This document shows, piece by piece, positions 28,732 through 33,696 of a stretch of 64,000 nt of DNA. Each line of letters opens with the position of its first letter. Within the stretch, counting starts at the first letter, position 1. Position numbers and translations under genes: made by a program. The notes under the pieces are model-generated. The model searched no databases. It saw nothing but the letters and a program-made list of their open reading frames with translations, and was not told where the DNA came from. Source of the DNA: an uncultured Litoreibacter sp. (lineage in GTDB: Bacteria; Pseudomonadota; Alphaproteobacteria; Rhodobacterales; Rhodobacteraceae); assembly GCF_947487515.1 (NCBI RefSeq), contig NZ_CANKWO010000004.1, positions 62,001 through 126,000 of the forward strand, written 5' to 3'.

Positions 28732-28804
28732 GCCGATGATTCTAGGCGCCTTTTGGCGAATTTATGTTGCGTTTTGACTGATGTTGTCCCAATTGTTGCA
28801 ACCT

Positions 28805-29257
28805 ATGAGCGATTTGGATCAGATCAACGAAAACATATTGCGTGAGCTCTCTCGGGATGGTCGGGTCAGTAACCTTGATCTGGCGGACCGTGTAGGGCTG
28901 TCGCCTTCGGCCTGCTTGCGTCGTGTGCAAGATCTGGAAAGGCGTGGGATTATCCAAGGATATCGCGCTGTTTTGGACCGAACTCAGCTTGGAACTGGGT
29001 TTGTGGCCTATGTGGGTGTGGGGTTGTCGAATCACTCCAAGGCGTCTCAGGAGGCATTCGAGCGCTCTATTGCGCGCAGCCCGCAGGTGGTCGAATGCCA
29101 CAATATCACAGGATCGATTGAGTATCTGCTGCGCATCGAATGCGCGGATCTGGCAGCCTACAAGGTGTTTCATACCGATATTCTTGGGGCATTGGAATCG
29201 GTGAATGCGATCACATCCTATGTGGTCATGGGCTCCTCGAAAGACGAACGCGCTTAA
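28805..29257 (+). CDS. Lrp/AsnC family transcriptional regulator
   Basis: 150 residues from the ATG at 28805 (MSDLDQINENILRELSRDGR); the frame opens at 28781. N-terminal winged helix at about 5-55 (RVSNLDLADRVGLSPSACLRRVQDLERRGII) and the RAM effector domain at about 65-145. It probably regulates the divergent LysE-family exporter at 28135-28731. Confidence 0.9.
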   Translation: MSDLDQINENILRELSRDGRVSNLDLADRVGLSPSACLRRVQDLERRGIIQGYRAVLDRTQLGTGFVAYVGVGLSNHSKASQEAFERSIARSPQVVECHNITGSIEYLLRIECADLAAYKVFHTDILGALESVNAITSYVVMGSSKDERA

Positions 29258-29277: not shown

Positions 29278-29314
29278 AAAAAAACGGTGACGCGGGAGGA
29301 GGTGCGTCACCGTT
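29278..29314 (-). terminator. Terminator of the DUF1127-sRNA transcript
   Basis: The last hairpin of the array (11-bp stem AACGGTGACGC/GCGTCACCGTT on the plus strand) is followed on the minus strand by TTTTTGTGTC, with two further T bases ending the stem. It doubles as the final anti-SD hairpin and an intrinsic terminator. It also faces the Lrp gene end. Confidence 0.8.
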
Positions 29315-29522
29315 CTTATGTGCGGCTCCGACCAGGGAGGAGGAAGGTCATCGCCGTATGACGGGCCAGCCTCGGGAGGAGGTGAAGCTGTTCCGTGGTG
29401 CTCAGCACATGCGTCTAAGGGAGGAGGAAGACGCAGTGCCGATCTGGTCAGCGGCGGCACCTAAGGGAGGAGGAAGGTGCCACCGCTAAAGCGAACTCGG
29501 CTAAAGGGAGGATAAAGCCGAG
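29283..29522 (-). ncRNA. Array of six anti-Shine-Dalgarno hairpins (CcsR/cuckoo-type sRNAs)
   Basis: On the minus strand, directly downstream of the DUF1127 gene, six hairpins each expose a CCTCC core in the loop. Plus-strand loop motifs: GGGAGGAGG at 29294, 29335, 29374, 29419 and 29465, and GGGAGGA at 29506 (spacing 39-46 nt). Stems: 29283-29293/29304-29314 (11 bp); 29330-29333/29346-29349 with outer CGGC/GCCG; 29367-29370/29387-29390; 29411-29416/29429-29434; 29456-29461/29476-29481 with outer GCGG/CCGC; 29496-29502/29516-29522 (7 bp). Loop and stem sequences differ while the core is kept. In Rhodobacter sphaeroides, CcsR1-4 sRNAs with this motif follow a DUF1127 gene and are processed from a shared stress-induced transcript. 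Six units here, perhaps three double-hairpin RNAs. Exact ends are not determinable. Confidence 0.85.
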
Positions 29523-29531
29523 AGCGCAAAC

Positions 29532-29744
29532 TTATTTTCCGTAAGCTGCCTCATAGGCGACGGATTTGATGTTGCCGCGTGTCATGCCCAAGTCAGCCAA
29601 TTCGCGGCCGCTCAAGTACTGCAACTCGTTCAATGTTGTGCGGTACACGTTGTATTTCGCACGACGCTCAACCAGTTCGTTTTTCAATGCGACCAAGCCT
29701 TCAAAGAAGGAAGGAGCAGTGCGGATGCTTGTTGTAAAAGCCAT
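29532..29744 (-). CDS. DUF1127 small protein (CcaF1-like)
   Basis: About 70 residues from the ATG at 29744 (MAFTTSIRTAPSFF); a second in-frame ATG at 29750 lies closer to the AAAGG site, so the start is uncertain by two codons. The C-terminal ELQYLSGRELADLGMTRGNIKSVAYEAAYGK is the DUF1127 (YjiS-like) signature. In R. sphaeroides the DUF1127 protein CcaF1 is a small RNA-binding protein encoded just upstream of the CcsR sRNAs and influencing their processing. Here the stop lies 9 nt before the first anti-SD hairpin, an exact match to that layout. Confidence 0.9.
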   Translation of the reverse strand: MAFTTSIRTAPSFFEGLVALKNELVERRAKYNVYRTTLNELQYLSGRELADLGMTRGNIKSVAYEAAYGK

Positions 29745-29812
29745 GTCCATTTACCTTTTCTCTGCGAAACCGTGGCACCGATGTTTCGATGTCTTCGTTT
29801 CTGTTGCCTCAT

Positions 29813-29840
29813 ATTTAGTGAAATGCTGCGCTGCAACAAG
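29813..29840 (-). promoter_or_regulatory. Candidate (RpoH-type) promoter of the DUF1127-sRNA unit
   Basis: Minus strand: -35 CTTGTT (29840-29835), 16-nt spacer, -10 CTAAAT (29818-29813), about 65 nt before the DUF1127 start. CTTG plus CTAAAT is close to the R. sphaeroides RpoHI/II pattern known for the homologous locus. Inference from pattern and homology only. Confidence 0.45.
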
Positions 29841-30085
29841 ACACAGATTAACATTTCCGCTATGCAGCACGCGCATGGCTTAACGTGTTGTTTTGCTTAC
29901 GTAACGTGACTTGGATTATGACATTTTTGTGAACTCCCGTTAGCGCTGCCATCTCAAATGGCCGGAGGGCGCGCCCTATGGCTGGCCGAAAACTGTCACA
30001 CTGATGGGTGGGTTGGGGGTTGCCCTTGTGGCCCATGGGCTCCACTTAGGTGGGACCCAAAATTAACCACGACAGGGATGCCCCG

Positions 30086-32944: not shown

Positions 32945-33149
32945 GATAAAGACGGCAACTAAAAACAAGGGGCGATTAAGAACCCCAAGGCGACCAAAAG
33001 GTTTCATACAGGCACCGACTTTATCTAACTACGTTTGACCCTGCGCGAGTAGACATCCCCCCAGGTGGCGCGGGTCAAACACCTCCCTAAACGGGAACGA
33101 GGGCGGCAAGTTGATCAGTGGCAGCAGATCAACTTGCCGTTTTCCGTTT
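32945..33149 (+). ncRNA. UpsM-like leader sRNA of the dcw operon (5' end approximate)
   Basis: The roughly 200 nt between the MraZ array and mraZ have no protein-like reading frame but end in a textbook terminator (33104-33149) only about 35 nt before mraZ. In Rhodobacter sphaeroides the dcw operon has the same design: a long leader that is mostly terminated early to give the abundant sRNA UpsM of about 200 nt. The 5' end here is set from that length and from the TTGATT -35-like element, so it may be off by tens of bases. Confidence 0.65.
33104..33149 (+). terminator. Attenuator-like terminator just before mraZ
   Basis: A perfect 13-bp stem CGGCAAGTTGATC / GATCAACTTGCCG (33104-33116, 33127-33139) with a 10-nt loop, followed by TTTTCCGTTT. 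Standing between the dcw promoter region and mraZ, it must be read through for dcw expression. Confidence 0.92.
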
Positions 33150-33183
33150 AAGGGCTTGAGAATATGAAAGGGTGGCGCGGACA

Positions 33184-33696
33184 GTGGCACAACGGTTCAG
33201 AGGTGAAGGCGTCCACAAGGTGGACAGCAAGGGCAGGGTCTCGATCCCAGCCCTGTTTCGCCGTGTTCTGGAAGCCTCTGACCCCGATTGGACCGACGGT
33301 CTGAACCCGAATGTTGTCATTGTATACGGTGGCAAAACTCAAAATTACCTTGAAGCCTATACGCAAGAAGCCATTCAAGAGGTCGATGACAAGATCGCGC
33401 GTTTGCCGCGCGGCTCCAAACAGCGTCGCGCGCTGGAGCACATCTTCAACTCGCAATCCCTGCCCACGCAAACCGACGACACGGGTCGTTTGGTTTTGCC
33501 CGCAAAGCTGCGCGAGAAAATTGGCATCACAAATGAGGCCAAATTCGTGGCCATGGGCGACACGTTCCAAATCTGGGCGCCAGACGCCTTTGATGATCGC
33601 AATGCAGACATCGAAGACTGGTTGGACGAGCAGGGCGAAGACTTCGACCCATTGGAATTGTTGGAGATGGCGCCAGAGCCATCCCCCGCGGAGTAG
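33184..33696 (+). CDS. mraZ: Transcriptional regulator MraZ
   Basis: First gene of the dcw operon. The GTG at 33184 gives [27 protein letters not shown], the standard MraZ N-terminus, with AAAGGG 11 nt upstream; an earlier GTG at 33172 overlaps that ribosome site and is unlikely. 170 residues with two SpoVT/AbrB-like repeats ([13 protein letters not shown] and [15 protein letters not shown]), longer than E. coli MraZ by a C-terminal acidic tail. It binds TGGGN repeats and represses its own operon; candidate sites are present upstream. Confidence 0.95.

Follow-up and report, generated by a model that had tools for sequence, protein, structure and literature searches.

The 64,000-nucleotide stretch of DNA analysed here (the window) carries on its minus strand an array of six hairpins with anti-Shine-Dalgarno (aSD) loops behind a gene for a 72-residue DUF1127 protein, and this locus belongs to the known ar14/CcsR/'cuckoo' kind of RNA. 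It is very probably a Rhodobacteraceae DUF1127-cuckoo (CcsR/CcaF1, 'CIN1') locus, that is, an activator-controlled transcript whose loops would pair with G-rich ribosome-binding sites (RBSs). The locus itself is of a known kind; the parts worth following are its promoter box and an LsrB-type gene of the same genome.

The hairpin array and its DUF1127 gene

The array occupies positions 29522–29280 (Table 1). As stated in the original prediction, six minus-strand hairpins with CCTCC-type loops are present, five (H2–H6) with the loop word CCTCCTCCC and one (H1) with TCCTCCC at 29512–29506. The mapped positions reproduce the claimed spacing of 39–46 nt, and the last hairpin is joined to a terminator, H6 running into a T tract; the terminator scan, which permits loops of up to 8, gave no site at H6. 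The first hairpin stem starts 9 nt past the DUF1127 stop and the largest gap between hairpins is 19 nt. Folding of the minus strand, proposed earlier as a check, showed the array to be much more stable than shuffled sequence: a joint fold of 301 nt reached -138.4 kcal/mol (z -9.4; 0 of 100 shuffles as good), and of the six hairpins folded singly, five were better than every one of 200 shuffles. The exception is H5, a weak hairpin matched or surpassed by 8 of its 200 shuffles.

Table 1. Features of the DUF1127 gene, its promoter region and the hairpin array (window coordinates)
Feature	Position	Strand	Details
LsrB/VtlR-type LTTR box TGCTGCATAGCGGAAATG	29852–29869	-	16/18 versus family consensus
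-35-like TTG	29837–29839	-	12 nt after box
-10-like CTAAAT	29813–29818	-	18 nt after TTG
DUF1127 small protein, CcaF1-like	29532–29750	-	72 aa; Pfam PF06568, E 1.3e-9, 38.1 bits (cut-off 23.3)
H1	29496–29522	-	loop TTATCCTCCCTTT; 7-bp inner stem; z -5.2 folded singly
H2	29448–29489	-	loop TCCTCCTCCCTT; 15-bp stem; z -6.8 folded singly
H3	29410–29435	-	loop TCCTCCTCCCTT; 7-bp inner stem; z -5.1 folded singly
H4	29367–29390	-	loop ACCTCCTCCC; 7-bp inner stem; z -3.4 folded singly
H5	29329–29350	-	loop TTCCTCCTCCCT; weak 5-bp inner stem and outer 4-bp stem; z -2.2
H6	29280–29317	-	loop ACCTCCTCCC; 14-bp stem, then T tract (intrinsic terminator); z -6.4
Rfam ar14 (RF02344) match, H4–H6	29278–29401	-	77.4 bits (cut-off 58.8), E 7e-14

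The predicted placing of the array downstream of a DUF1127 gene was upheld by a Pfam match above cut-off. This short gene lies directly upstream on the same strand, as at CcsR/CcaF1 (CIN1) loci, and its product aligned with 28 relatives at a mean column identity of 56%; four DUF1127 matches above the Pfam cut-off are present in the genome. The word CCTCCTCCC occurs 13 times on both strands of the 3.34-Mb genome, five of these copies within the array, and the reversed word 20 times, so that the clustering is unusual and the word itself is not rare. No second array was found in this genome with the ar14 model, which gave two overlapping matches at the locus and one of 12.9 bits elsewhere.

On the plus strand, the H6 terminator hairpin (29280–29317) lies 23–60 nt beyond the stop of a convergent Lrp/AsnC gene (28781–29257). 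Read from this strand, it would expose GGGAGGAGG in its loop, the complement of the aSD loops, and may act as a sponge if the Lrp/AsnC transcript reads through.

Eight related 3'UTRs, the window's included, were aligned on a structure derived from the window sequence, with which 95.7% of cells were paired. Two-sided changes were seen in 18 pairs; shuffles gave 5.4 ± 1.8, and none of 500 reached 18; further pair types, one of five measures, were not raised (31 against 28.6 in shuffles, 65 of 500 as high), and slid controls favour the window structure because of its derivation from that sequence. The stems covary and the loops are constant, which bears out the earlier description of different stems around one loop core. 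Covariation and conservation in relatives, whose absence was to count against the original prediction, were both found, in these 18 two-sided changes and in the arrays of 137 of 140 genomes. Span-limited folding gave six hairpins in the window and in L. albidus (L003), eight in G002 and five in the five others. H3 is present only in the first three of these and absent from the five other aligned relatives, indicating that hairpins are gained or lost one or a few at once. Chance as the origin of the array was ruled out by the fold shuffles, the covariation and the flank-swap test described below.

Family membership and array size

The proposed covariance search was positive for one model and negative for another. 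H4–H6, three hairpins with CCUCCUCCC loops, matched ar14 above its cut-off, and the whole-genome search gave the same match, again above cut-off. A second, non-overlapping copy on H1–H3 (29402–29533, 36.9 bits) and an alternative placing on H2–H4 (45.6 bits) fell below it, and a whole-window Rfam scan with fast filters reported neither ar14 copy. At E≤10 the model also matched 9 of 14 control genomes, none above cut-off. The CcsR1 model (RF02791, cut-off 65.3 bits) scored only 30.6 and 29.7 bits, on H1–H2 and H4–H5, and at 1e-9 had no match in the window's own genome.

Kinship with the CcsR/CcaF1 and cuckoo RNAs is supported, by the DUF1127 gene with its array and by the ar14 score. NfeR1, the ar14 RNA of Sinorhizobium meliloti, resembles the array in its CCUCCUCCC loops and variable stems and in a promoter described as having an LsrB-type box (PMC10746234), but is a three-hairpin RNA with its own promoter, where the window has six hairpins after a DUF1127 gene. 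CcsR1-4 with CcaF1 of Rhodobacter sphaeroides are likewise described as DUF1127 gene, aSD array and terminator (PMC10253847); unlike them, the window locus misses the CcsR1 model, is without long linkers between pairs, and has an LsrB/VtlR-type box, the promoter published for CcsR/CcaF1 being RpoHI/RpoHII (PMC10253847). A constant loop on variable yet pairing stems, with short DUF1127 genes adjacent, is also the pattern of the cuckoo family or CIN1 locus, which is described, after Reinkensmeier and Giegerich 2015, as having 2–4 hairpins per RNA (via PMC4504443, PMC10253847), against six in the whole window array and 2–24 among its relatives.

Division of the array into three double-hairpin RNAs, as had been suggested, is not favoured. 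Its largest gap of 19 nt compares with 30–64 nt between most neighbouring pairs of the CcsR1-type arrays L175–L178, and in L178 the eight hairpins fall into four pairs separated by 32–34 nt. Among 128 arrays with at least three hairpins, 34 keep every gap below 28 nt; the compact form is therefore a minority, in which pairwise cutting is not evident. The covariance models also split the window array differently, ar14 taking H4–H6 and then H1–H3 or H2–H4, and CcsR1 taking H1–H2 and H4–H5. We take the R. sphaeroides RNA RS0680a to be CcsR1. Two stem-loops are described for RS0680a (PMC3927594), and if each CcsR has two, the six hairpins are not more than those of CcsR1-4, contrary to what the earlier comparison implied.

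An array of six is nothing unusual in this family. In loci from 140 genomes, a sample biased to strong matches in which 13 named loci were counted as own genomes and further doublets are possible among them, arrays, with a minimum of two hairpins, were present in 137 (none in G021, G167 and N_L078). Array size ranged from 2 to 24 hairpins with a median of 7, and 13 of the 137 had six; the arrays of N_L068 and G161 are identical, and removal of one left 136 with the same median and range. Such counts miss weak stems: of seven aligned relatives, four counted as 4 fold 5 and one counted as 5 folds 6. Matches to ar14 at E≤0.01 were obtained across the family, in 182 of 218 genomes against 0 of 14 controls (26 of 218 above cut-off), and CcsR1 matches at 1e-9 in 158 of 394 genomes, the window's own not included (17 of 394 above cut-off). 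When loci were found through the DUF1127 protein alone, 29 of 30, the window's own included, had an array; these 30 were returned for 34 matching genomes among 61 searched. With arrays this widespread, and with relatives folding 5, 6 or 8 hairpins, the suggestion of a species-specific expansion was rejected. In 107 of the 137 arrays the last hairpin is followed by four or more consecutive T. At one locus (L029) three tandem arrays of 8, 2 and 2 hairpins each have a DUF1127 ORF before them, and three arrays (L107, L212 and L222) have no detected DUF1127 ORF upstream, like stand-alone NfeR1.

Reversed sequence was unusable as a control since both hairpin and motif CCTCCTCC survive reversal, and flanks were swapped between 1017 TCCTCC cores instead. 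A stem score of at least 12 was obtained for 82% of cores with their own flanks and 19% with swapped flanks, and a score of at least 8 for 95% and 57%, a test that is partly circular because the arrays were selected by hairpin detection. The largest array seen, 24 hairpins in 1.2 kb of G209 (L126 1870–3069, reverse-complement coordinates), consists mostly of repeated three-hairpin units of about 140 nt each. Internal repeats (at least 60 nt, 80% identity) were found in 49 of 60 arrays with at least eight hairpins and in 11 of the 77 arrays with fewer, which suggests growth by tandem duplication. Hairpin number was correlated with flank GC (Spearman 0.41, 137 arrays, kinship uncorrected), to which easier detection may contribute.

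The promoter box and a candidate regulator

The leaders of the DUF1127 genes, taken as the 260 nt before the start (n=129), contain a family-wide box, TGCTGCATRGCAGCATTG, 12–13 nt before a TTG. It emerged from a search for common nine-base words, of which GCAGCATTG, part of the box, was present in 75 of 129 leaders and absent from 116,840 background bases. At least 14 of the 18 letters of the box were matched in 125 of 129 leaders (124 of 128 with a duplicate removed) against 2 of 1280 shuffled leaders, and a TTG stood exactly 12 or 13 nt past the box in 118 of 129 (117 of 128). A -10-like YYANNT 18 nt after the TTG was found in only 59 of the 120 TTG-bearing leaders. An exact-box search matched 80 of 218 genomes, with none for the reversed pattern among the matches listed. 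Retrieval of 30 loci by the box alone gave a DUF1127 ORF behind 27 and an array behind 28; at two of them (L212 and L222) the array follows the box by 128 and 189 nt with no DUF1127 ORF detected. In the window, the box, to which the original prediction makes no reference, lies upstream of the -35-like element (Table 1), as at LsrB/VtlR targets, and has two mismatches. The window's own genome has no exact copy, and a search of it with the 15-letter core and one mismatch gave eight other places (control 2), the window locus not among them.

Judged by its letters, this conserved box resembles the published VtlR/LsrB box, a likeness that we report as new. The latter is described as resembling CAATGCAGCCATGCA and as standing before DUF1127 genes or sRNAs (PMC12595884). 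The reverse complement of the Brucella VtlR motif, TGCATGGCTGCATTG, was matched at 12 or more of its 15 letters in 118 of 129 leaders against 4 of 1290 shuffled leaders; the best site in the window leader, at 11 of 15, is the second element. In the VtlR/LsrB regulon of Brucella, Agrobacterium and Sinorhizobium a similar box precedes AbcR sRNAs and DUF1127 genes, whereas the window has a DUF1127 gene and an sRNA-type array in one presumed transcript, under a regulator that is putative in Rhodobacteraceae. A literature search, with most subscription papers out of reach, returned none linking CcsR with LysR, LsrB or VtlR.

The -10-like CTAAAT is compatible with the RpoHI/HII promoter as described in PMC3441632. 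RpoH-like patterns were few, CTTG-N16-18-CYTA in 7 of 129 leaders (1.5 in shuffles) and TTG-N16-19-CTAT in 25 of 129 (3.9 in shuffles, 8 on the other strand), and therefore no more than compatibility with RpoH is claimed.

Among 23 LysR_substrate matches in the genome is an LsrB-type LTTR (L245 1240–2142), with 41% identity over 289 residues (243 bits) to 9HH1, the LsrB of Agrobacterium tumefaciens (PMC11975290), and 46 of 60 residues identical in the N-terminal region. The next LTTR by score had 28% identity (130 bits) and another 34% over 195 residues. This protein is a candidate LsrB-type regulator, put forward for this genome from one-way similarity, which is no proof of orthology. LsrB is called unique to Rhizobiales in PMC11975290 (2025), on the basis of selected genomes that include R. 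sphaeroides. The trxB gene of the window's genome has no LysR neighbour, unlike that of Rhizobiales, and at L260, where a LysR gene is divergent from another DUF1127 gene, no box was found between them.

Predicted function and rival readings

The DUF1127 gene and the array are probably covered by one transcript, starting some 55–60 nt ahead of the gene and terminating in H6. Its probable activator is a LysR regulator of LsrB/VtlR type bound to the box at 29869–29852, perhaps with an RpoH-type sigma factor acting alongside. The 3'UTR, uncut or cut by RNase, would present interchangeable CCUCCUCCC loops kept open by stable stems, each of which could cover an unusually G-rich RBS (GGGAGG/GGAGGAG) and block translation of a few mRNAs. 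Such silencing is argued by analogy with NfeR1, whose aSD loops are reported to silence ntrB and to act redundantly (PMC10746234).

A search of the genome for GGGAGGAG-N3-14-ATG gave 12 matches, two of which are one site, against none for the reversed pattern. Four of these open ORFs of more than 100 aa, encoding a DUF3179 protein, a Cache-domain histidine kinase, a TRAP DctP protein and a response regulator, the kinase and DctP genes being divergent (C1:170390 and 170601). These pattern matches are candidate targets and suggest that transporter and signalling genes may be silenced. At the four sites the loop was computed to pair with -17 to -19 kcal/mol and the 16S tail with -11.3 to -11.8; the respective values for the start of the DUF1127 gene in this operon were -4.3 and -7.1. 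GGAGG is absent from the last 20 nt of all 129 DUF1127 leaders, which suggests that the mRNA carrying the array escapes silencing by it. Among the 37 long ORFs of the window (start taken as the first ATG) a single one is preceded by GGAGG, so that good targets may be few.

This computed preference bears on the alternative of mimicry, in which the loops would imitate the anti-Shine-Dalgarno tail of 16S rRNA and affect ribosomes or translation generally. CCUCC is common to the loops and the 16S 3' end, but the conserved loop is CCUCCUCCC, stronger than the 16S tail at GGGAGGAG and weaker at an ordinary start, and GGAGG is rare before the window's ORFs; we consider general mimicry very improbable. 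That the array is a mere 3'UTR, stabilising and terminating the DUF1127 mRNA without a function in trans, would fit its start so close behind the gene, its terminal terminator and the fact that 130 of 137 arrays have a DUF1127 ORF no more than 400 nt before them. Yet the other 7 have no such ORF detected, nor have two of the 30 box loci with an array after the box, and a stabiliser would not need constant loops on varying stems, making this reading decidedly unlikely.

The loops might also be a platform or sponge for protein (a CcaF1-like DUF1127 protein, Hfq or another) rather than antisense seeds. R. sphaeroides CcaF1 is reported to bind RNA and act in CcsR maturation (PMC10253847) and CcsR to interact with Hfq (PMC8307010), and many like loops on varied stems, up to 24 in one array, would also suit a loop-reading protein. 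The loop, however, is a perfect complement of GGGAGGAGG, silencing by loops of this kind is described as demonstrated for NfeR1 (PMC10746234), and another DUF1127 protein, YjiS, is reported not to have shown RNA binding (PMC12501420). A protein platform is thus unlikely.

The wider picture is one to which we give even chances: that an LsrB/VtlR-type regulator, thought confined to Rhizobiales, has the DUF1127 and aSD-array operon as its main dedicated target across Rhodobacteraceae, and that the array is a dosage device of 2 to 24 loops, growing by tandem duplication of two- or three-hairpin blocks and tuned by lineage. One conserved operator would then join two target types described separately for LsrB/VtlR in Rhizobiales, and the natural 2–24 hairpin series offers a way to ask if silencing becomes stronger, or broader, with loop number.

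A further terminator-like hairpin, GGCAAGTTGATC...GATCAACTTGCC followed by T-rich sequence, was read by eye at 33105–33148 on the plus strand; the terminator scan does not list it, and Rfam gave no match to it at E values up to 1. It lies just upstream of an mraZ-like ORF (33172–33696). In R. sphaeroides the corresponding place is described as that of UpsM, a leader RNA of the dcw cluster (PMC8625941, PMC5089854).
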